Source of the DNA: a virus
IMG/VR virus record: IMGVR_UViG_3300036668_000241
Location: 1 to 64,000 of that record
Strand: one strand, 5' to 3'
DNA: 64,000 bases
Shown piece after piece: positions 21,801-64,000 of the stretch. Under the pieces are notes generated by a model. It was not told the DNA's origin. It ran no database searches and was given only the letters and a program-made list of their open reading frames with translations. Position 1 is the stretch's first letter. Each line of letters opens with the position of its first letter. Position numbers and translations under genes: made by a program.

Positions 21801-24198
21801 AATATCCAGAATTTTCATTAATACTTCCAGTAATAGCAAACATTGCAAAATCTGAAGTGTTTGTTTTATTGCTAATTCTTATATGACCCTTGATTGGGCT
21901 TGTAGAATCATCAATAGTTCTTAGAAAAACTTGAACATCAATTGCACCATCAGACTCGTCGTCAATAAACATGTTGCTAGACAATTGAAGATCTGCATTA
22001 TTAAATCTAAGTTTTCCTGTGCCAGGATCTGAGTCTGCAGTGCTACTGTTGAATGTATAGTCAAAGCTTGCTCCACCAAACACACCTGCGGGACCTTGTG
22101 TACCTGTTGCTCCAGTAGGTCCCTGTGAGCCTGTAGGTCCTGCAATACCCGTTGGGCCTGTAGGTCCTTGAACAGTGCTTGCTGCACCTGTTGGACCAGT
22201 CGAACCTGTTGGCCCGAGAGGCCCAGTTGGTCCTGTAACAGTAGAGTTAGCACCTGTTAATCCTGTAGAACCAGTTGGTCCTGTAGCACCTGTGGGACCT
22301 GTAAATCCTGTAGTACCTGTTGCGCCTGTCAACCCTGTAGGTCCAGTGACACCAATTAATCCTTGAGCACCTGTAGGTCCGGTTACTGTACTGGCAGCAC
22401 CAGTAGCACCAATTAATCCTTGAGCACCTGTAGGTCCTTGAATTCCATCAGGACCCCTAAGACCTGTCGGACCTGTAACACCCTGACCTCCAGCTACTCC
22501 GGTAGGTCCAGTAGAACCAGTTGCTCCATTAGCTCCAGGTTGACCAACAGCACCAGTAGGTCCAGTCCCGCCTGCAACACCTGTAGGTCCTGCTACACCT
22601 GCGGCACCTGTTGCACCAGCAGACCCAGGTTGGCCAACAGCACCTGTTGATCCTGTAGGACCTGTTACTGTCGAGGCTGCACCTGTTGGACCTGTAGGAC
22701 CAGTAACACCCTGAGTACCCGCTGGACCCGTTACTGTCGAGGCTGCACCTGTTGGACCTTGCAAACCTGTTGCACCTGTTGCGCCTGTTGCACCTATAGA
22801 ACCGTTAGTACCCGCTGGGCCCTGGGATCCGGTAGGCCCTTGAGCCCCTGTTGGGCCAGCAACACCTTGTGCACCAGCAGAACCGGTAGAACCCGTTGGT
22901 CCGGTTACATTAGAGTCAGCACCCTGAGAGCCAGTAGGACCTGTTATACCAATAGATCCGGTTGCACCTGTTGGGCCTTGCGGTCCCATGTCTCCTGTGC
23001 GAGCAAAAGTAATAACGACATCTTCAGCAGAAGAAAAGTTAGCTGCCAGTCCGCTAACGTATGAAACAGGAACTTTGAAGTATCCTGTTGTTTCAGTTAT
23101 AGTTCCAGTAATAGCAAAGAATGCAAAATCATTTGCATCCTGTTTGTTAGCAACACGAAGGTGTCCTTTTATAGGAGAAGTGCTGTCATCAATTGTTCGC
23201 AAGAAAGCTTGAATGTCTATTGATCCATCGGCTTCGTCATCAATAAACATAAATGTTGCGACAGGTAGACTTGCTTGGTTAAATTTTAAAGTTCCTGTTC
23301 CTGGATCAGAATCGTCTGTCTGAGTAGAGAACGTGTAGTCAAATGTTGCTCCGCCAAAAGATCCTGCTGCACCTGTTGCTCCAGTTGGTCCTTGAGTCCC
23401 TACTGCTCCGGTAGGTCCTGCAATACCCGTTGGGCCTGTAGGTCCGGGAGTAGTACTTACTGCTCCAGTAGGGCCAGTGGTCCCTTCAGGTCCTTGAACT
23501 CCCGTAGGACCTAGATTGCCTTGAATTCCCTGAACACCCTGTGGTCCTGTTACACCCTGTGGCCCTGTTACTCCTTGAGCACCTGTTGGACCTGTTAATC
23601 CTTGTGCTCCTATTGAGCCTGTGGGCCCGGTAAAGGGACCAACATTTTCCCAAGAAGATGTCTCTGTACTCCAGATATATAGGTTTAACCCAACAACATA
23701 CGCATCACCAGCAGCACCTGTAGGGTGTGCAGTAGTTAGTGCACTCTCTGTTGCGTACTCTCCTAAAAGTTGAAAAGAATACCCGGCAGGTCCCGTTGGT
23801 CCTTGAGGCCCTAATGGTCCTCGCGCAATGCCTGAACCGGCTGGCGTTACTGTAGATGGATCTGCAGTGTCGAGACGAGTAATGTCAACATCGCTCTCGT
23901 CACCTATAGGTAGATAGAATCTAAACTCGTAGGGCCTAGCACCTCTAATGCGAATTCTGGCGGTGTAGTACCAACCACGAGGACTTAAATCCCGATCGTC
24001 CGTGCAAGGAAGCTCTACCGAAAATTCACCGTTAGCATTGAGTGTTGCTTGAACGGGACCAGAAAGAATTACCGCGTCATCAAGATCTTCAATACGACTA
24101 GACGCATTAAAAGTGATTGTCCCCGAGGCAGCTAGACCGTTCACTTTTGTGAATTGGCCAACAACTACTCTCGTGGATACGTCAACAGGGTAACTCAT
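18832..24198 (-). CDS. Very long modular collagen-like tail fibre (1788 aa)
   Basis: The N-terminal 120 residues form a distinct beta domain ([20 protein letters not shown]...), a probable virion-attachment head. Then come many hundreds of GPTGPTG/GPQG residues. Three homologous inserts of about 120 residues each run from FGGA(T/S)FDYTF to ITFARTGD, at roughly 22987-23360, 21711-22082 and 20834-21206. Further [15 protein letters not shown] and [10 protein letters not shown] modules follow. The C-terminus (from [10 protein letters not shown]) is paralogous to that of the 544-aa fibre. The order suggests growth by tandem duplication. This is probably the longest side or tail fibre; as a collagen helix it would be very long and flexible. 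Confidence 0.85.
21182..21415. repeat. 234-bp direct repeat, copy 1
   Basis: By eye this segment is base-for-base identical to 22058-22291, offset by 876 bp. It covers the [10 protein letters not shown] insert start and the adjoining collagen codons of the 1788-aa fibre. The identity extends to synonymous positions, while flanking homologous parts have diverged. This points to recent duplication or gene conversion. Confidence 0.85.
22058..22291. repeat. 234-bp direct repeat, copy 2
   Basis: Second copy of the repeat at 21182-21415, inside the same fibre gene. Recombination between the two would remove or add an 876-bp in-frame block (292 codons), changing stalk length. Confidence 0.85.
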
Positions 24199-29166: not shown

Positions 29167-30591
29167 TTATCGAGCAGTAAAAATTTTTCCACCACGGTTA
29201 GGTGGTTTCCCGGAGTCTCTAATGTTTGGGATTCTTCTTGCCGCTGAAGATTTAGCTGTAAGTTTTCCACCAGTAAACCCAGGAGGTGGCTTGATAAGTA
29301 GAGCTGTCATTGCATGGACCAGTGCATCTACTCGGTCAGGAGACTTCTTAGTCTCTTCAGGTATCCACGAAGTCATCTGAGATTCAAGATCTGTAAGATA
29401 TCCAATGTGATGAATTCTTTGTTGTTCGTATGCAAGGACTACAGGTTCTGCTCGTAAAGCTTTTCCATACTTAGAGTGAACTTCTAATACTTTAACTCCA
29501 GGGTCTATTGAGTTAATAGCGTTTCTTACTAATGCTCCACCTTGATTAACTTCAGCAACTACAGGAGCACCCCAACGACGAGCCATCTCTACAACTCTAC
29601 TTGCCCATACTTCAGGGGACCCATGAATAGAAGCATCTTCCATAACCCACGCGTTGCGTTTGTATAAATCTCGATCTGCAGTTGCTGCGCACACAACAAT
29701 TCCACATTCGTCTCGAGGATTCTCTGCTACAGATGGGTCTACTCCAATACATCTAAGAGGTGCGGATGCAGGGAGCATCCCATGACGAGATTCTTCAATC
29801 ATTTCAATTGTCCAGAGTGCTCCTTCAACATCGCTCAGCATTTCTCCATAGAGTTCTTGCTGCGCAAGACGAGTTCCTTCGTAAACACCCATGATTGACT
29901 CAAGGTATGCCTCTGATAGGTTTCCAGCGTTGTCTAGGGTGCTACCTTTTGATATATAAACTTTACCTGTTCTCTCCGACTCTGCTAGTAGTGAATACAG
30001 AATCGGCACACGTTTAGGAGTAGTAGTTGCAATAATTTGCGGGTGTGGGCCAAGACGAGTTGCAACTCGTAAGTTATCCCAAGATGTCATACCTGCTGCG
30101 TCAGGGGACTGTCGCCACGCTGCTAGTTCATCTGCCCATGAATAGTTAGCCTGGACACCACGGAGGCCGTCAGGCTCATCAGCAGTAGCGAGTAGTGCGG
30201 TATTCCCGTTAGGCCATGTAAGACGACGCTTAGAGGGTTCGTAGTGCGGTCTTTCGGAAGGAGGAGATATATCTAATATGCCAGAGTTACCTTCAACGAT
30301 TACATCTCGAACGTCAGCAGCAGTACGAGCAACCAAAAGAAATCTTAATTGACCCTCGTTTGTTAGTTTTGCTCGATCTCGTACCCACTCGGCGGCGGAA
30401 CGTGTTTTTCCGCTTCCACGGCCCGCAAGATAAAGCCATACATTCCAGTCAAATCCGTCAGGAGGACGTTGCTCTGGACGCGCCCATGCAGACCAATCCC
30501 ACATAAGCGCATCCATATCGACACCAGCAAGAATCGCTTCTCGTTCTTCTTTAGGCAGTGAGGCAAGCTGCTCCATCATGCTTTGGGCCAT
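29167..30591 (-). CDS. terL: Terminase large subunit
   Basis: 474 residues. The ATPase domain has Walker A GRGSGKT (57-63) and a Walker B region YSWADE (150-155), with ATTTPK as the coupling motif. The C-terminal RNase H-like nuclease shows D285 (IGVDPS), E347 (VAEVNQGG) and D422 (DRVDALVHA). It belongs to the Terminase_6-like group. The enzyme packages DNA into the prohead and cuts concatemers. It lies 8 nt downstream of a small HTH protein, a possible small subunit. It converges on the primase gene with only 26 bp between them and no obvious terminator. Confidence 0.95.
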   Translation of the reverse strand: MAQSMMEQLASLPKEEREAILAGVDMDALMWDWSAWARPEQRPPDGFDWNVWLYLAGRGSGKTRSAAEWVRDRAKLTNEGQLRFLLVARTAADVRDVIVEGNSGILDISPPSERPHYEPSKRRLTWPNGNTALLATADEPDGLRGVQANYSWADELAAWRQSPDAAGMTSWDNLRVATRLGPHPQIIATTTPKRVPILYSLLAESERTGKVYISKGSTLDNAGNLSEAYLESIMGVYEGTRLAQQELYGEMLSDVEGALWTIEMIEESRHGMLPASAPLRCIGVDPSVAENPRDECGIVVCAATADRDLYKRNAWVMEDASIHGSPEVWASRVVEMARRWGAPVVAEVNQGGALVRNAINSIDPGVKVLEVHSKYGKALRAEPVVLAYEQQRIHHIGYLTDLESQMTSWIPEETKKSPDRVDALVHAMTALLIKPPPGFTGGKLTAKSSAARRIPNIRDSGKPPNRGGKIFTAR

Positions 30592-42814: not shown

Positions 42815-45800
42815 TTTTCTTTTCTTTAGCAATATCCGTAATCATTCTAACCTCGCAACTATCCGTGCTACAGAAAGCTTCTCCGATAGCATCAGATGCC
42901 ATACCTGCGTAGACTCCCGCAAAGTCAATCTGAAAGAGTTTCATTGTGTAGTCGTTATACTCTTCCTCAGTGATTTGACCGTAGGGCATCTGGGGATAAG
43001 TATCGTTTCCTTGGGGTAGGAATGAAACTGTCTTCATCTGACCGTCATACATATGAAGAACAGATCCGACATGCTTGCTTTCTGTCTCTGCATTAAACGA
43101 AATCGTAACACTAACAGAGTTGTCAGACCAGTATCGCTGTGCTTGTGCTGCTAGTGCCATTTTCTCGAAGATGGTAACTTCTTTGTCAGACCTAGATGAG
43201 TTTGAAGCAATTGGAAAGTAAACAACGGAGGTAGTGTCTGGAGATTCGAACGCTGGTTCGACCCGGTAATTAGCCATCTTGAATAGAGGAAGCATCGGAT
43301 CACTGTTAGCGAAGCGAATCGTGCGCAGAAAATACTTACCACCGGGAGTCCAATGTACACCAGGGGACTCACCAGCAAGAATAGAAACTGTTCCCGAAGG
43401 CTTAACGGTTGTTGTTTTAATCGACTCCCGAATCCCAAGCCATTCCGAGTAGATGGTGTCGTAATATTTGATAGTTCCGTATCCTTCATCCATCCATGTT
43501 CTCAGAGTTGGGAGACCCTGATTATCTGCAAAGTCTGCTACGCCCGACATTGACGCTCCAATACGACGGTTACGCTGCATGATTGCGTTGGTCTCTTCCC
43601 AGTGGGTGGGGAGGAGAGTGACAGTCTTAGCGTAGAGATAAGCAAACTTTAAAGTGCGCTTGTAGTCTTCTAGAGTGTCGTGCCGATTTAGGTAAGTCTC
43701 TACAAGGGTGCACATCTCGAAGGACTCAAGAGATTGTTCGGCGCAATTGTGAACGTACAGCCCATTGGCATCAAAAGCGTGAACTTTCTCTACGGTGACA
43801 TCATAAACCGATGCAGTTCCAAAAGGAGTCAATGACTTGAACGTTGCATAAAATGGCTTAGTGTATACGGCCTTGCTTCGGAGACTGTTGATACGAAACC
43901 ACTTATCACTCTTCTCTAAATCACAAAAGCCGATGCGATCCATATACCTATGAGCACTCTGCGCTGAAATCATTAGTCGCCAAGTTGCCTTGGTAGCATA
44001 AATTTGATAGTCGCCTGTGCCATTATTCTTTGGTAGAGACATTTCGCCTGCGGTTCGGTTCATTGCTACGGTTGATTGAATGCCTAACCGCAAGAGCATA
44101 CGCTGGACCCGCTTAAGTTGCTCTTTATCAGACTGATGTAGACGAATACTTACGCCCTTCTCTAGGTTTCCTTCTACTGAACCGTCAGCATCAAATGCGC
44201 CACGGAGGAACCCGACGTAAAACTCTGAAGACATCTGCTCAAGATCGTCTGTAATCTTCTTAGATCCCGGGCTCATACCTACAGAGTCAGCAAGATGTGC
44301 AATAGATGCACTCTTCAATCTATACTCATTCCGTCCCGGAACTTCCATAAATCCCTGCCAGTCAGACCTGTGTGAAAGTGTAGATGCTGCTGTAAAGACT
44401 GCTTCTTTGACCTCTGGGTGGTCGCCCCAGACACTTAGCACAGCACTTTTATTGTTGAAAGTTCCGTCTCCCCAGAGTTGACCAATAAGATATCCCTCTT
44501 GTTCGGAGCCAGCACCTCCCCACACACTTAATGTTCCATGATCGTGCAGGACAATCTTATCTTCGTGAGTAAGATTTCCCGCTTCTACCCACCCACGTTG
44601 GGTCATCACTTGGTGGTTGTCTGTGATCCTAAGTGTGTGTCCCTCTACCGTTGTCAAATCAAAGACCTGACGATCATGGTCTGTAAGGAAGAATCCATCT
44701 GACTCGGTTCGATACTTCTCTCCATCTACAATCGCTACGAACGGGGTGCCAACCAAGTCGCGCACCTGCCTCGGACCATCTTCAGTCAATACCCACGAAT
44801 CATCAGTGATGCAAGGGTTGTAGCCTACGACGCGATGATCTTTGTTATTTGGTGCATCTGCAAGACGACCGTACGCACGCGACACATCCATCCACAAAAC
44901 TCCGGGCTCACCGTTGCGAACTACTCCATCAAGAATTGGAGATAAGTCTTCTCCAACTTTTACATCTACTGAGTTGTTAGACATCCAGCCAAACTCTTGA
45001 CGATCTGCTGCAGGTCCAGGAGTGAACTTACCTTTGTCATCATAGGTTCCATAATTCTTGAGGTTCAAAAACTCTTCGTCATCAATAGAACCAATGAGAA
45101 GTTCGGCTGAGCGACGCACGTTACCTGAGACAACGCAGACGCCAATCATATTTCCAATATTGGCAATGTCTGTTCGAGTTACCATTTCGCCACCTCTACC
45201 ACTAAACAACTTAGTAATATGGTTGTGTAGTTTTTCTAATGGCTGATGTCCCGCTGCGGTCCCACCAAAAATCTTAATTGGTACGCCTGCAGGACGGATT
45301 AATGAGTAGTCAAACTTCACTGATTTTTGATCTGACTTAAGGTAAGAGTTAATTTGCATGGTCAAAGATTCAACCCAACCCTCTCGGGTATCAGGAATCT
45401 CATATACAACTGACTCTTCTAATGGATTGTAGATATTGAAGTTTTTGTCAGCACCCTTATTGTCGAAACCAACGCCAACGCCAAGCATGGAAGCTTCCAT
45501 AAGATATGCAAATGGTTTTGCTGGATTGTTCTTGGTCATTTCCATGCTACTAACAAAGGCACAGTTTTGAAGGGCTGCGCTATTGCGCTGCTCATTTACA
45601 AGACGAGTTCCCATAACCCAAAGACCTCTGCCAGGTGGAGTCCACTTCAGATTAAAGAGACGGTCAAAACCTTCTTTGGCTGATGATTGAGCCTTCTGGT
45701 CATTCCACGGTAAACGATTAGTTTTGCAGTGATCTTTTTGAAGAGAGTACATGCCATTGATGACACGCTCACATACATCTGTCCACGTCTCTTTAGTGCC

Positions 45801-56287: not shown

Positions 56288-56324
56288 TATAATAGATCTG
56301 CTACTAAGTAGTGGGTCTATTATA
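56288..56324. terminator. Strong hairpin at the end of the first rightward operon
   Basis: An 18-bp stem (TATAATAGATCTGCTACT pairing with AGTAGTGGGTCTATTATA, using G-T wobbles) with a one-base centre. A/T-rich flanks suit a bidirectional terminator. The upper part contains TGCTACTAA, the reverse complement of the TTAGTAGCA motif repeated further right. Confidence 0.6.
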
Positions 56325-58768: not shown

Positions 58769-58842
58769 GGGGCGGTAGCTCAGCTGGTTAGAGCCCCGAA
58801 CTCATAATTCGGTCGTCGTCGGTTCGAGCCCGACCCGCCCCA
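58769..58842 (+). tRNA. tRNA-Met(CAT)
   Basis: Acceptor GGGGCGG/CCGCCCC, anticodon stem CCGAA/TTCGG with loop CTCATAA (anticodon CAT), T arm GTCGG-TTCGAGC-CCGAC and discriminator A. No encoded CCA. CAT could be elongator Met, initiator Met or lysidine-modified Ile; elongator Met is likely. A TATACT box ends 4 nt before it. Confidence 0.93.
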
Positions 58843-58914
58843 CCCGTGTCTCTTAGTAGCAAAACGAATATACTTAAAAAGACAAAACGACAAACTACGA
58901 TTGGAAATCCAATT

Positions 58915-59241
58915 ATGTTTTTAGAAGCCCTAATTCTTGGAGCCTTATACCGTCAAGAGAGTGACGCAATAGAGTATGCATATGAACAGCCTAAGTCAGA
59001 GAAAGAACGAGACGAACTTATTTTTTCTTATGTCGGTTTAGGATTTCTTATCTGGCCTCTTCTTTCCTGTATCGGCTTGTTTAAGTCTAAATGCAGATGG
59101 TATGTTTCTATACTTCCCGTCGTGTTCGGCGCGATCCTTTTATATGTAGGATATTCAAACGGGGCATGGACTTATTACTTCACTTTCAGTGCTCTCTGGG
59201 CGCTTGTTGCATTTTTTGTACTAGGACTTACAACACCTTAA
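58915..59241 (+). CDS. Membrane protein
   Basis: 108 residues from the ATG at 58915 (a GTG at 58846 lies beside the tRNA and is rejected). There are three hydrophobic segments: near the start (FLEALILGALY), the middle (LIWPLLSCIGLF) and the end (YVSILPVVFGAILLYVG, FSALWALVAFFVLGL). It is probably a small inner-membrane protein. Function unknown. Confidence 0.65.
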   Translation: MFLEALILGALYRQESDAIEYAYEQPKSEKERDELIFSYVGLGFLIWPLLSCIGLFKSKCRWYVSILPVVFGAILLYVGYSNGAWTYYFTFSALWALVAFFVLGLTTP

Positions 59242-59253
59242 GGGAGAATAATA

Positions 59254-59574
59254 ATGTTATTGCGAAACTACATCGGATCCGAGATCCGGCGCGCCCGTGT
59301 TGACAAAGACATGACTTTGCGAAGTATGGCGATTGTATCCAATGTAACTATGAGTTATATTTCCGAAGTTGAGCGCGGCCTGAAGGAACCGAGTTCCGAG
59401 GTACTTCGTTCCCTATGCACCGCACTTGACTATCCGGTTTCCTCCCTACTGACTGAGGTTAGTAGCAAGATGTTGATACATGAGATCGAACTGGAGTTGA
59501 AGCTCGGCAGCTACCCAACGTCAATAAAGTATTCCAAAGTGATCCAGGATGGCGGGTTGACAACCGTCGGATAA
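59254..59574 (+). CDS. ClgR-like XRE-family transcriptional regulator
   Basis: 106 residues. A helix-turn-helix of the ClgR/PspC type is clear: GSEIRRARVDKDMTLRSMAI...SNVTMSYISEVERGLKEPSSEV...LDYPVSSLLTEVS. In actinobacteria ClgR activates clp protease and other stress genes. A phage copy could either control phage genes or redirect host proteolysis. AAGGGAG precedes the ATG. It is the only clear XRE regulator in the window. Confidence 0.85.
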   Translation: MLLRNYIGSEIRRARVDKDMTLRSMAIVSNVTMSYISEVERGLKEPSSEVLRSLCTALDYPVSSLLTEVSSKMLIHEIELELKLGSYPTSIKYSKVIQDGGLTTVG

Positions 59575-59585
59575 AGTTCTATAAT
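59557..59585 (+). promoter_or_regulatory. Consensus promoter for the gp88 gene
   Basis: TTGACA, 17-nt spacer, TATAAT: both boxes match the sigma70 consensus exactly. It overlaps the end of the ClgR-like gene and lies 55 nt before the gp88 ATG. Confidence 0.85.
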
Positions 59586-59639
59586 AAAAGACGGAATGAC
59601 AAAAGACAAACAACACCTATATCTACACAAAGGGACATC

Positions 59640-60377
59640 ATGACAACAGGACTTAAGTTGAGCAAAGATCGCAAGGTTGCCAACATCGTAAATAAAGCAG
59701 GCACGCAAGCCGCTATGCACAACGCATTCGGGTTACCGGCAGGCGATCAATTCTCGTGCGGAGGCATGACAGATGTATGCGGCTCGATTTGCTACGCAAA
59801 CAAACTAGAGAAGTTATTTCCTTCTGTTCGCGTATTGCTGATGCACAACTGGAACCTGCTAAAAGATGCGGATTTCGACACAATGGTCAACCTACTTGAT
59901 GAAGTTATTTGCAAGTTTGAATCAGAGTGCGAGAAACGTTCCGCCAAAAAGATATTCAGAATTCACTGGGACGGCGACTTCTTTAGCATTGACTACGCTC
60001 GAGCATGGATCGAAGTTATCCGTTGTCATCCTGATATACAATTCTGGTCATACACTCGGCAGGCGTTCGCTGCAGTTGAATTACATAAGTCTGGACTTAT
60101 CAACGTAGCAAACTATTTCAGCGCGGATAGTGCAAACTTGCCTATAGCAACAATGCTACGAAAGACCTACGGCATACGCCTAGCAATGCTTGCTGATAAT
60201 TTCCAAGACGGTCAAGCCGTTATGCGTGAGATCACCGGCAAGGTTGGTGCAAAGTGCCCAGAGAATAATAAAGCGCAGGCGTTCGGATTAATCACAACCG
60301 AAGGATCGGCATGTAGTAGGTGCCGCCTATGTGTGTTCGGCAAGGCTGACATAGTATTCAGCGCGACTAAAAAATAG
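59640..60377 (+). CDS. Gp88-family phage protein
   Basis: 245 residues. The gp88 family landmarks are visible: LKLSKDRKVANIVNKAGTQA, NAFGLPAGDQFSCGGMTDVC, CYANKLEK, RIHWDGDFFS, DYARAWIEVIR, QFWSYTRQ and C-terminal ACSRCRLC. Cys at 40, 47 and 51 and the final Cys cluster suggest a metal site. The family is widespread in actinobacteriophages and of unknown function. Preceded by a consensus promoter and AAAGGG. Confidence 0.85.
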   Translation: MTTGLKLSKDRKVANIVNKAGTQAAMHNAFGLPAGDQFSCGGMTDVCGSICYANKLEKLFPSVRVLLMHNWNLLKDADFDTMVNLLDEVICKFESECEKRSAKKIFRIHWDGDFFSIDYARAWIEVIRCHPDIQFWSYTRQAFAAVELHKSGLINVANYFSADSANLPIATMLRKTYGIRLAMLADNFQDGQAVMREITGKVGAKCPENNKAQAFGLITTEGSACSRCRLCVFGKADIVFSATKK

Positions 60378-60417
60378 TTTAGGCAGAGGGACTGCCACCA
60401 AATGACGGGAGTACGGA

Positions 60418-60660
60418 ATGAAAGTAAAAGATCTAATTCAGCAACTTAACGACCACTACAAACCGGAGGACGATATCTTCTTGATTTCTTGGGACAAGAC
60501 CTTCGGAGCCGGTATGACAGAAGACGGCGTGCTAAGCGATGAGCAATGGGAAACCGCTGTTGCACTTATGGAGTTTAGAGAGCACAGAGATATGGAAAAC
60601 GTAAACGGAGAGATGACAGAACTAATCCGTGAGAGAGTAAACGAAGCACTAGAGGACTGA
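60418..60660 (+). CDS. Hypothetical acidic protein
   Basis: 80 residues. MKVKDLIQQLNDHYKPEDDI resembles the small phage family starting 'M...DLI..L..Y.P.D.I'. GGGAG lies 6 nt before the ATG. The stop is 8 nt before a TTAGTAGCA copy. Not assigned. Confidence 0.65.
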   Translation: MKVKDLIQQLNDHYKPEDDIFLISWDKTFGAGMTEDGVLSDEQWETAVALMEFREHRDMENVNGEMTELIRERVNEALED

Positions 60661-60689
60661 GATGTTTCTTAGTAGCACGAGTTAGAAGG

Positions 60690-60718
60690 TTGACAACCGC
60701 CAGAAAAAATGTAATAAT
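60690..60718 (+). promoter_or_regulatory. Promoter upstream of a structured leader
   Basis: TTGACA, 17-nt spacer, AATAAT. The expected start lies 1-6 nt before a strong stem-loop (60724). Confidence 0.75.
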
Positions 60719-60723
60719 AGAAC

Positions 60724-60774
60724 TTGTACGGCGAGGGTATGCGACCCCTAACGACTCGCTCCTTCGCCGTACAA
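60724..60774 (+). ncRNA. Structured 5' leader or small RNA
   Basis: A perfect 11-bp stem, TTGTACGGCGA/TCGCCGTACAA, encloses an inner GGGT/ACCC helix. Transcription from the promoter at 60690 would begin almost exactly at this stem. It precedes the 164-aa gene by 35 nt. It may be a stabilising cap, a regulatory leader or a small RNA. Confidence 0.6.
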
Positions 60775-60809
60775 CCAAATGACAATTACAATACGACGGG
60801 AGCAAGACA

Positions 60810-61304
60810 ATGGGTTTAGATCAGTTCTTGAGAGTAAGTAAGACCTTCGGCTCGTATATCAACGACACCGAATCCGCTTCATACGACGCAATTAAGGCGG
60901 CGGCAGGGCTGGATAAGATCGGTAATTCGAACAGCAAATATGTCACAGTGGAAGTAACCGCACTCTACTGGCGCAAGGCAAACGCGATCCACGGCTGGTT
61001 TGTCAACGAACTGGCAGGCGGCGAGGACGAGTGCCAAGTAATTCCAGTAACCCGTGAAAACATAACTACGTTGCGCGATCTTTGCGTAGACGCTATGAGT
61101 GTTCCAGCAGGTATGTCTCTTGATACTCATGCGCGTACGGTGCTTCCCCCATCCGATGGGTTCTTCTTCGGTGGGTCAGAAATTGACGATTACTATATTC
61201 AAGATCTGAAGGACACAATCGAAGGTATAAACCGTATCCTCGAAGAACTTCCAGAAACCGGCGAGAGCTGGGACTGGAGTTTGACATATCAAGCATCGTG
61301 GTGA
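60810..61304 (+). CDS. Phage protein of the YWRKANAIHGWF type
   Basis: 164 residues. GLDQFLRVSKTFGSYIN and LYWRKANAIHGWFVNELAGG are a motif common in phages and some plasmids ('GLD.Y......YWRKANAIH.WF'). C-terminus IEGINRILEELPETGESWDW. Preceded by GGGAG; unknown role. Confidence 0.7.
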   Translation: MGLDQFLRVSKTFGSYINDTESASYDAIKAAAGLDKIGNSNSKYVTVEVTALYWRKANAIHGWFVNELAGGEDECQVIPVTRENITTLRDLCVDAMSVPAGMSLDTHARTVLPPSDGFFFGGSEIDDYYIQDLKDTIEGINRILEELPETGESWDWSLTYQASW

Positions 61305-61310
61305 CACGGC

Positions 61311-61339
61311 TTGACAACGGGCAACCGATTCGGTAGCCT
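61311..61339 (+). promoter_or_regulatory. Promoter for the 61346 structured RNA
   Basis: TTGACA, 17-nt spacer, TAGCCT; the -10 fits the TA-x-x-x-T form of this phage's other promoters. Start is expected near 61346. Confidence 0.6.
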
Positions 61340-61345
61340 CTAATC

Positions 61346-61418
61346 TTGTTGGTAGAGAACCCCCCTTCTCCCAACAACGAGTCCCGTCAGAGTTCTCCCC
61401 CGTCCTCTGGCGGGACTC
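61346..61418 (+). ncRNA. Two-hairpin small RNA or leader
   Basis: Hairpin 1 (61348-61375): GTTGG/CCAAC and GAGAA/TTCTC with a six-C loop. Hairpin 2 (61379-61418): a 14-bp stem GAGTCCCGTCAGAG/CTCTGGCGGGACTC with one G-T wobble and a 12-nt loop. They start where the promoter at 61311 predicts the RNA 5' end. A 73-nt RNA ending in hairpin 2, or a leader for the 47-aa gene at 61484, are both possible. Confidence 0.65.
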
Positions 61419-61483
61419 ACCTTTCTTAGTAGCACGAAAAAACAAACGACAAAACGACAAAAACTAGAAACCAGGAGTATACA

Positions 61484-61627
61484 ATGCCAATCTTTATCGA
61501 AGTTGAAGACACGGACGGCACGATCTTCGAGTGGGTAACAGACAGCGAAACTTTAGACAAGTTGCGCGGCCATCTTGGAGAACCGCAAAATGTCTACTCT
61601 TTAGTAGCAAGTGATCTCGCGGCTTGA
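61484..61627 (+). CDS. Small protein (47 aa)
   Basis: 47 residues beginning MPIFIEVEDTDGTIFEWVTD. AGGAG lies 8 nt upstream. The stop overlaps the -35 box of the next promoter. Not recognised; similar short acidic proteins occur in phage early regions. Confidence 0.65.
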   Translation: MPIFIEVEDTDGTIFEWVTDSETLDKLRGHLGEPQNVYSLVASDLAA

Positions 61628-61652
61628 CCGCGTGAAAGTAAACCTCTATAAT
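61624..61652 (+). promoter_or_regulatory. Promoter for the DUF1281-like gene
   Basis: TTGACC, 17-nt spacer, TATAAT. The -35 overlaps the stop of the preceding gene. GGAG follows before the ATG at 61684. Confidence 0.8.
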
Positions 61653-61683
61653 AGGTAAACACCTACAAGATATGGAGAACAAG

Positions 61684-62346
61684 ATGCCAAACTGGGTTCA
61701 TAACAGCCTAAACATTACCGGAGACAAAGAGCAGATCACGCGCCTAATCGCGCAGGTTTCTGCCCCCTACACCACAAAAGGTTCTGAGTGGGTAGACGGC
61801 AAGATGATTACGGTAGATGCCGTAGTCACAGATCAAGATTTCTCATTCTGGAATATCTCACGGCCTGAAGGCGAGGACTTGGATAAGTACAACGAGTCTA
61901 TGGGAGGTGGCACACACGCAACCCCTTTCTGGTACGAATGGAATAACACCCACTGGAATACTAAGTGGGAAGCCTGTGATGCCGTGAGTGACCTAATCCA
62001 CGGAGAGAAGGAGAGTCAGGTTTCCTACCACTTCCAAACGGCGTGGAGTCCACCAACTATCGTACTTGTTAAGTTGGCACAGCAATACCCAACGCTAAAC
62101 ATGACATTCTTCTGGGAAGAAGAGCAGGGTTTCGGTGAGGACTTAGAGATTACCGGCGGGGAGATTGTCGTCAATGATTCGTGGGATATCCCAGAGACAC
62201 ATGAGGACACAATGAAACGGCGCGACTACTGCTATTGCGAAGATGCAGAAGATCAAGATGATATTCCGTTTGATGATTGCCCGACTAAGTTTGATCCGAA
62301 TATGATAATTGACAAAAACGAAATAGAAATGGAGGCACTAATATGA
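61684..62346 (+). CDS. DUF1281/YubB ferredoxin-like phage protein
   Basis: 220 residues from the ATG at 61684 (GGAG 8 nt upstream; an earlier ATG at 61672 is less likely). MPNWVHNSLNITGDKEQITR, WGTKW-like NTHWNTKWEACDAV and FQTAWSPPTIVLVKLAQQYP match the DUF1281/Api92-like family (ferredoxin-like fold, 'MPNWC.N.L.V.G......F'). Found on plasmids and phages; function unknown. Stop overlaps the next ATG (ATGA). Confidence 0.8.
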   Translation: MPNWVHNSLNITGDKEQITRLIAQVSAPYTTKGSEWVDGKMITVDAVVTDQDFSFWNISRPEGEDLDKYNESMGGGTHATPFWYEWNNTHWNTKWEACDAVSDLIHGEKESQVSYHFQTAWSPPTIVLVKLAQQYPTLNMTFFWEEEQGFGEDLEITGGEIVVNDSWDIPETHEDTMKRRDYCYCEDAEDQDDIPFDDCPTKFDPNMIIDKNEIEMEALI

Positions 62347-62576
62347 GTAACGTGACATCACTTACTTACTTCGCAACTGACGGGAACTACGGGAACGCAG
62401 GAGGTCTCACCGTTGTAGATACGTCTGCATGGACAGACCTTGACTTCGAGTTGCTAGATGGCGTGACAGATGAGTTGCGCCCTACTGCCGGTCGAACGAT
62501 CTCCGATTGGATTGAGGGTGGTCGAACAGATGACTACAATACTTACTTCCAGAAATTGGGAATAGATATTCCTTAG
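62343..62576 (+). CDS. Hypothetical protein
   Basis: 77 residues, ATGA-coupled to the preceding gene. FATDGNYGNAGGLTVVDTSAW suggests a small beta protein. Its stop TAG is part of a TTAGTAGCA copy. Not recognised. The next 178 bp hold two more motif copies and a promoter. Confidence 0.6.
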   Translation: MSNVTSLTYFATDGNYGNAGGLTVVDTSAWTDLDFELLDGVTDELRPTAGRTISDWIEGGRTDDYNTYFQKLGIDIP

Positions 62577-62680
62577 TAGCACGATTTATATGATCGTCCC
62601 TGCCGTGAGGTGGGGACTTTCGTATTTAGTAGCAAAGTTGCGTATCTACTTAGTAGCAACACGCAAACTTCGATATAGAT

Positions 62681-62709
62681 TTGACAAGTACTCGAATAAC
62701 CTGTAAGTT
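62681..62709 (+). promoter_or_regulatory. Promoter for the 163-aa gene
   Basis: TTGACA, 17-nt spacer, TAAGTT. A 45-nt leader follows, with AGAAGGA 7 nt before the ATG. Confidence 0.7.
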
Positions 62710-62754
62710 TGCTCTTGTAAGGAAAACACCTACTAAACGACAGAAGGAAATAAA

Positions 62755-63246
62755 ATGGACGTTACTAAGTCAGTTCAGGGGATCGCCGTCTATGGTGAGT
62801 TTGTACGCCCCGGTACTACCACGCAGGTTATTGTTACTCCTGACGGACGCAACACATCAGGCGACAAGGTTGAGATGCACATTGTGCGCCGAACAATCAG
62901 CCTATCTACACCACGCAAGCAATGGCGTTTCAGCACACTATCTACCACTGACCCAATTACAACCTACGCAGGGTCAAACGTAGACGCTCTAAAAGAGATC
63001 TACTGCGACAATCGCATGAGGTACGCCTCGTCATTGTTCGAGCAACTGGCACGCGGAGATTGGTTCTTAGTAGCAGATCCAATTCTGGTTGAGGTCTCCA
63101 AAATGGATATGGATCATATCTCCATAAACAAGACACCTACCAAATTGCTTTATCGCATCACGCAATCCCGTCTAATGATTCCGGGATATCCAACTGACGT
63201 TGTAAATGAAGAAATAACCACAACACCTACACTTGCCACTATTTAG
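62755..63246 (+). CDS. Hypothetical protein
   Basis: 163 residues. Beta-rich start (VQGIAVYGEFVRPGTTTQVI) and helical middle. Contains a TTAGTAGCA copy encoding LVA, and its own stop TAG lies in another. It is 25 nt upstream of the ATPase gene. Not recognised. Confidence 0.6.
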   Translation: MDVTKSVQGIAVYGEFVRPGTTTQVIVTPDGRNTSGDKVEMHIVRRTISLSTPRKQWRFSTLSTTDPITTYAGSNVDALKEIYCDNRMRYASSLFEQLARGDWFLVADPILVEVSKMDMDHISINKTPTKLLYRITQSRLMIPGYPTDVVNEEITTTPTLATI

Positions 63247-63271
63247 TAGCAACGAGCCGAAGGATAAAAAA

Positions 63272-64000
63272 ATGTTATCAGAAAAGTTTGCAAATATCGG
63301 ATCAGTCTCAGAGCCAACAAAGTTCTGGAGCATGGTTGTCGAAGTCGCTGCACAAATGGACGTACCAGAGTCTGCTATGAAATTGTCATCAGAGGTATTG
63401 CCACAGGGTCGGTACGTCGAACGTGCTGCAAATGGGACACGCAAGCCAAAGACTCCAAAGGCACTCCCCACCGTTGAGTCATTAGATGCAGATACCGAAT
63501 ATCTGCGACCTAATGGAATGATCTATCACACCCGCGAATGGGGAGAGCATGGAGATGTCGCTGCCCTACGCAAGGCGCGTGAAGTTACGGCGCAAGCCTT
63601 CACAGAAAGTTCCGGCTCTCCAATGTTCTCGCTGCTCTACGGCGCACCCGGCTGCGGAAAGACTGCACTAGTTGAGGCTGCTTTCGGTGAGAATATCTAC
63701 ACGATCTTGGGGACTGGCGATACCGAAGTGGCAGACATGATCGGTGGATATATTCAGACACCTAGTGGTGGCTTCGAGTGGTTGGACGGCGACCTATTAA
63801 AGGCTGCCGAAAATGGTGGAGTCTACTTCATAGATGAGGTCGGACTCATTGACCCGAAGGTTCTCTCCATTGTGTACGGACTCATGGACGGACGGCGCGA
63901 GATCACTGTCACCGCAAACCCAGAGCGAGGCACAGTCAAGGCTCACCCAGAGTTCTATGTAATCGCTGCTACTAACCCAAACGCACCCGGCGTTCGGTTG
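63272..64000 (+). CDS. AAA+ ATPase, MoxR/CobS-like (C-terminus cut by window edge)
   Basis: At least 243 residues. After a 110-residue N-terminal part come Walker A YGAPGCGKT, IGGYIQTPSGGFEWLDGDLL, Walker B VYFIDEVGLIDP, KVLSIVYGLMDGRREI and sensor 1 VIAATNPN, as in the AAA_5/MoxR-McrB-like group. Such ATPases act as chaperones that mature metal enzymes or as remodelers; phage versions have unknown targets. GAAGGA precedes the ATG. The frame continues past the window. Confidence 0.9.
   Translation, partial: MLSEKFANIGSVSEPTKFWSMVVEVAAQMDVPESAMKLSSEVLPQGRYVERAANGTRKPKTPKALPTVESLDADTEYLRPNGMIYHTREWGEHGDVAALRKAREVTAQAFTESSGSPMFSLLYGAPGCGKTALVEAAFGENIYTILGTGDTEVADMIGGYIQTPSGGFEWLDGDLLKAAENGGVYFIDEVGLIDPKVLSIVYGLMDGRREITVTANPERGTVKAHPEFYVIAATNPNAPGVRL

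Follow-up and report, generated by a model that had tools for sequence, protein, structure and literature searches.

Several actinobacteriophage clusters have dispersed short repeats, whose function is unknown in the surveyed literature except in cluster A. The cluster A stoperators, described in L5, Bxb1 and TipsytheTRex, are asymmetric 13-bp sites whose orientation follows transcription and whose reversal abolishes repression (PMC9283540). The stoperator consensus differs between cluster A subclusters (PMC6550527). Here we examine a nine-base word, TTAGTAGCA, that is repeated many times in a freshwater actinobacterial virus. The window, the whole stretch under study, consists of bases 1–64000 of virus record IMGVR_UViG_3300036668_000241 (G000 below), which is incomplete and 72,328 bases long. 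The relatives with which it was compared (L007/G005, G002 and other records) are fragments. An earlier note on the window had listed ten copies of the word and likened them to L5 stoperators and to the start-associated sequences (SAS) of cluster K.

With 40 copies of a non-palindromic 9-mer, the virus has the asymmetric, many-fold repeated site typical of cluster A. TTAGTAGCA and the stoperators are both short, occur more than 20 times per genome in intergenic gaps and at promoters, and have a consensus specific to the lineage. The cluster A phages are temperate, and their sites are read by an immunity repressor that has helix-turn-helix and stoperator domains; the sites silence the prophage, the bound protein halting elongating RNA polymerase in one direction. 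Unlike the stoperators, half of the TTAGTAGCA copies are reversed and lie in genes or ahead of starts, the word is a different one, it is confined to one region, and no repressor or integrase was found in the fragmentary records examined. Predominance of one orientation, a stoperator feature, is absent from the array as a whole (18 plus, 18 minus copies) but present in its intergenic subset and in most sister lineages. The proposed likeness to L5 stoperators is supported for the plus copies: they are short and asymmetric, lie in gaps or at stops, point with transcription and are spelled differently in each lineage. We do not claim that TTAGTAGCA is a cluster A stoperator, because a single orientation was looked for and not found and because no repressor or sign of lysogeny came to light in the fragmentary records.

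The SAS of clusters K and EF stand directly before starts and merge with the Shine-Dalgarno region. Some minus copies do likewise, but virtually all SAS are 3–7 bp from start codons whereas most TTAGTAGCA copies are not, 6/36 lying 11–19 nt before a start. The cluster K comparison applies to that subset of minus copies and not to the rest. The repeats of cluster O (Corndog) resemble TTAGTAGCA in that they exceed 30 copies, many of them in the small gaps between right-end genes, about a third are coding, recombination occurs between copies, and no lysogeny or function is known. However, they are 17-bp palindromes for which orientation is meaningless, whereas the TTAGTAGCA core has no dyad symmetry and its orientation tracks the genes. 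The 18-bp repeats of Microbacterium cluster EC, like TTAGTAGCA, are asymmetric and similarly oriented, lie in small intergenic regions upstream of genes and have no known function. They differ from it in sequence and size, number 12 and have not been reported within genes.

The TTAGTAGCA array

The whole record contains 40 exact copies of TTAGTAGCA (19 plus, 21 minus); the reversed word, as a control, occurs 0 and 1 times. Fifteen copies fall in the window, on both strands (11 plus, 4 minus), where dinucleotide shuffles predict 0.66 and the maximum of 100 shuffles was 3. 36/40 copies lie within 58.8–72.3 kb (58,853 to the record end, 13.5 kb), against approximately 0.09 expected from a second-order Markov model, and just 4/40 in the first 58 kb. 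Record G001 (48,821 bases), which is near-identical, has the word mainly at 9.7–26.8 kb and lacks it in the other 22 kb, where a portal-like gene is found. The motif marks a single region of about 17 kb. The array region consists of plus-strand genes, mostly small and unknown, 3′ of a long block of mainly minus-strand genes, and all assigned genes of the array are on the plus strand. TTAGTAGCA is the core of a slightly wider CTTAGTAGCACGA, with little conservation outside the core. Regular spacing of the copies was looked for along the array and not found.

All ten coordinates in the earlier note are correct. Its statement that the word is always on the transcribed strand is true of 58.8–63.3 kb but not of the whole array, in which 18 plus and 18 minus copies follow one another in the order ++++++++++-+---+--+---+-+-+-+-+-----. 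Minus copies are found at 45545, 49786, 56299 and 63967, and past 63.3 kb they outnumber plus copies. The relative L007 (MoxR protein 77% identical in amino acids, 61% GC) carries the forms TTAGTAGCAGAA and CTAGTAGCAAT, and five word positions are common to it and this record. Copies and neighboring features in the window are as follows.

56299–56307, minus: isolated reverse TTAGTAGCA copy, intergenic; kept in G001 despite differing flanks
58853–58861, plus: TTAGTAGCA, 9 nt after tRNA-Met (58769–58844)
59254–59574, plus: HTH_3 regulator gene (Pfam HTH_3), the ClgR-like protein of the earlier note
59459–59467, plus: TTAGTAGCA in the HTH_3 gene, encoding Val-Ser-Ser-Lys
60669–60677, plus: TTAGTAGCA, 8 nt past a stop and 12 nt ahead of a TTGACA promoter-like site
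61426–61434, plus: TTAGTAGCA directly past a strong hairpin, with a start codon 49 nt downstream
61601–61609, plus: TTAGTAGCA at a gene 3′ end, 14 nt ahead of TTGACC-17-TATAAT
62573–62581, plus: TTAGTAGCA with the stop codon of the 62343–62576 gene; the L007 homologue has a copy placed identically at its stop
62626–62634, plus: TTAGTAGCA past a hairpin
62650–62658, plus: TTAGTAGCA with a TTGACA-like hexamer 22 nt downstream
63067–63075, plus: TTAGTAGCA within the 62755–63246 gene, encoding Leu-Val-Ala
63243–63251, plus: TTAGTAGCA with the stop codon of the 62755–63246 gene, 20 nt ahead of the MoxR start; same position in L007
63272–64000 (ends at 64312 in the record), plus: MoxR-like AAA ATPase gene (AAA_5), the anchor for finding relatives
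63967–63975, minus: reverse TTAGTAGCA copy within the MoxR gene, GCT ACT AAC

At the place matching the 58853 copy L007 has TAGTAGCA, after a tRNA-like 3′ end. G001 is without this copy, and that whole stretch is missing from it. The tRNA was the sole match in an Rfam scan. The L007 MoxR gene also contains a reverse copy, but elsewhere in the gene. Between 61311 and 61425 the window has a TTGACA promoter-like site and, downstream of it, two strong inverted repeats that precede a 47-amino-acid gene; the element resembles a structured leader or small RNA. Positions 0–58000 of the window contain strong repeats of the GGNCCNAC type, e.g. GGACCTACAGG 22 times, which probably encode collagen-like Gly-Pro-Thr stretches in virion genes.

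Orientation and nucleotide selection

The orientation of the copies tracks gene layout. The 18 plus copies of the array comprise 12 that are intergenic, 3 on a stop codon (62573, 63243 and 68638) and 3 that are coding. The earlier note had correctly found the stop codon within the word at the first two of these sites; the third is outside the window. Conversely, 12/18 minus copies are coding, mostly for Ala-Thr-Lys, and 6 are intergenic. Six of the 18 sit 11–19 nt upstream of a start codon and run into the Shine-Dalgarno region (AAGAGAG/AAGGGGAG). With location classes drawn from a hand-curated gene list after looking at the copies, 15/18 plus copies noncoding or on a stop versus 12/18 minus copies coding gives a Fisher p of 0.006 over the whole array and of 0.001 past 63.2 kb. 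The classes are post hoc, yet two other data sets obey the same rule. The plus copies of G001 that are missing from G000 adjoin a TATTCT hexamer (19777), lie on a stop codon (25833) or directly follow a stop (26825), and the missing minus copies are in coding sequence or ahead of starts. In L007, plus TAGTAGCA copies are at stops or in gaps, while minus copies are in MoxR, in VWA, directly past the VWA stop or ahead of starts. Two plus copies of G000 (68112 and 69230) are at likely transcription starts.

Selection acts at the nucleotide level. Synonymous-codon shuffles of the array genes (2000) gave means of 0.10 plus and 0.24 minus copies, with maxima of 2 and 3, whereas 3 and 12 coding copies are observed. 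Ala-Thr-Lys occurs 10 times in the array genes against 1.3 expected, and 8/9 listed Ala-Thr-Lys tripeptides are spelled GCT ACT AAR. Together these excesses suggest that the element shapes the proteins and not the reverse. G000 and G001 differ by no substitution in 298 motif columns (one gap), compared with 1.66% of coding and 1.71% of intergenic columns around them; the chance of such a result is about 0.007. The VWA-internal copy of L007, which has 61% GC, is at identical codons (nt 647/648 of the gene) and reads ATT GCT ACT AGA; both ATT and AGA are rare in that gene.

Clearly, the repeat is real, strongly selected, two-way and dispersed. Some unrelated loci (L294 and L299) repeat the word within repetitive coding sequence, as chance or composition might produce, but the shuffles, the synonymous-codon test, the intergenic copies and the conservation leave this explanation for the array with practically no probability. 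The earlier note had named equal density elsewhere in the genome and loss from close relatives as grounds for rejecting the repeat. Neither was found, 36/40 copies being in one region and the word being kept in near-identical relatives. Overall, its observation was partly confirmed and its interpretation partly supported.

Different words in sister lineages

With the MoxR-like gene as query, 80 related loci were found, four of them near-identical to this record and carrying the word. In searches that were not metagenome-wide, no relatives with the exact word were found beyond L003–L007, and the phage collection held no close phage by DNA. At most other MoxR loci another word is abundant in this neighborhood: GGGGTAAAAATT, GAGGTAAAAAAT, GCAAAAAGTAAAAA, ATATTTTTTAGGGGAA, TTTGTAAATTTTTTAGG, TTTTCATTTTTTCTAATAG and others. 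These words are mostly oriented with the genes, e.g. 15:1, 30:5 and 17:2. In L068, L008, L044 and L021 the word is often past a hairpin or stop and ahead of a TTGACA-like promoter, and in some relatives, e.g. DSL-LC01, the promoter (TGTTATAAT) is repeated instead. Across L008–L082, most freshwater relatives that possess the MoxR-VWA block show an abundant short word of their own in that region.

Like TTAGTAGCA, the words GGGGTAAAAATT, GCAAAAAGTAAAAA, ATATTTTTTAGGGGAA, TTTGTAAATTTTTTAGG and others lie in the MoxR-VWA neighborhood in roughly 13–36 scored copies, at gene ends and in hairpin-promoter gaps. Unlike it, they have another sequence and are mostly in one orientation. They may do the same job, and together the words look like a feature of the whole family. 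A changing word with constant placement would be expected if regulator and sites evolve together, as they appear to do in cluster A subclusters (PMC6550527).

Promoter-like sites with a common spacer, TTGCA-N2-4-TGTC, occur at L001 8082–8110, 8909–8937, 10654–10682, 11197–11225 and elsewhere, and TTGACA...TGTCAG sites of a similar kind are present in L008, L037 and L072. DNA searches of viral contigs with TCTTAGTAGCACGA and with closely spaced TAGTAGCA pairs were dominated by chance matches. A few word-rich loci from outside the family were inspected, and of these L294 and L299 resemble repetitive coding sequence. Another virus contig, L290, has at 200–900 an intergenic array of CTTCTTAGTAGCAAATTTTCCC-like units, seven of which hold the same 9-mer; this array is probably unrelated.

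Possible roles and readers of the word

The reading that we favor, and to which we give about an even chance, is that TTAGTAGCA is a dispersed binding site for a putative phage-encoded DNA-binding protein that organizes transcription of the region in the manner of cluster A stoperators. The target would be DNA rather than RNA. Plus copies coincide with or follow stop codons and hairpins and often have a −35 hexamer downstream, and a protein bound there, between transcription units, would stop read-through from the previous unit, gate the next promoter, or both. On minus copies within units the protein would be bound in the opposite direction and polymerase would pass. The inner copies may help the protein to bind cooperatively or to coat the DNA, or may have an additional role in the RNA at start codons.

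Several results weigh against this reading. Besides the post hoc location classes, promoter and terminator scans gave no excess over shuffles, and for this reason the putative unit limits come from inspection by eye of gene order, hairpins and promoter-like hexamers. The distance from plus copy to promoter is variable (about 7–33 nt upstream, or at the start site) with no fixed geometry, and three plus copies are within genes. Reverse copies within genes have no counterpart function among known stoperators. There is no sign of lysogeny, PF00589 integrase having no match in six records, which are fragments and in which other integrase types were not searched. Finally, no protein binding the word was identified.

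The regulator encoded at 59254 was proposed earlier as the binder. Its gene lies in the array and itself carries a copy, but the product is an ordinary HTH_3 protein. ClgR sites are palindromic, as is usual for dimeric HTH_3 regulators, and TTAGTAGCA is not. No homologue was found in L007/G005, an 11-kb fragment, or in G002, both of which have the word, though this is weak evidence from fragments; few relatives yielded a homologue, and most of those with equivalent words, fragments too, yielded none. We consider this protein a very improbable reader. Two related families of proteins with two helix-turn-helix (HTH) domains are represented in G001 by 30023–30538 (hth172) and its paralogue 23213–23785 (bi191); none was found in the incomplete G000. 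hth172 is widespread in this phage group, occurring in 12/18 records, with various words. It is modeled as two discrete HTH domains with a low-confidence linker between them, a predicted arrangement that resembles the cluster A repressor, and comparison of the two-HTH proteins with solved structures gave no significant match. As a reader of the word hth172 is a candidate only. Lineages that use different words have almost the same recognition helices in hth172, and the protein is also found in Microbacterium phages, among which Pumpernickel shows no such word in its MoxR-VWA region. bi191, which by eye is sigma-region-4-like (RERVRQ helix), is patchy in occurrence and was not favored as the binder.

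Because plus and minus copies are perfectly complementary on the transcribed strand, RNA of a plus copy, in a 5′ leader or at a 3′ end, might pair with minus copies, many of them adjoining Shine-Dalgarno sequences, and control translation or decay. The six minus copies ahead of starts, the two plus copies at likely transcription starts and the presence of the word on both strands in L007 fit such pairing. Minus copies deep in long genes (65079, 65520 and 63967) would have no obvious use, some plus copies lie between hairpin and promoter where little RNA is expected, and in most relatives one orientation only leaves no pairing partner. We regard pairing as rather unlikely. The RNA processing element suggested earlier is single-stranded and hard to square with 18 copies per orientation when all assigned genes are on the plus strand. 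A slim chance is given to structural or maintenance sites, at which a phage protein would coat, condense, segregate or replicate DNA and orientation would be shaped only by avoiding harm to transcription. The high density in a single 17-kb block and the lack of a fixed place for within-gene copies, the MoxR copy differing between this phage and L007, are as this would predict; the irregular spacing is not, and one-region confinement and placement at stops and unit limits point to transcription.

It is improbable that the words are recombination linkers, placed at gene borders and used for gaining and losing genes. Breaks relative to G001 do occur in this record at or near the copies at 69230, 69973, 70814 and 71116, and a G001 gene, a paralogue of the 66439 gene, is deleted here against the 69973 copy with a short remnant left (L001 11973–12012). 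Comparable events are described at cluster O repeats (PMC4351075). However, 9 bp is short for recombination, and linkers leave the selection on within-gene copies and the orientation rule unexplained. Recombination at copies is more likely a by-product of repeated words at gene ends.

The binding-site reading can be taken further, tentatively, to a polarity code. One asymmetric site would stand in the blocking direction only between units and in the passing direction within them, bending codon and amino-acid choice toward Ala-Thr-Lys, and word and reader would co-evolve rapidly, as the different words in the equivalent region of sister lineages imply. We think this possible but doubtful. The polarity rule, the nucleotide selection within genes and the many freshwater relatives with different words are additions to what is known of dispersed repeats, and comparison of the lineages makes the question of the word's reader and of polymerase stopping directly testable.

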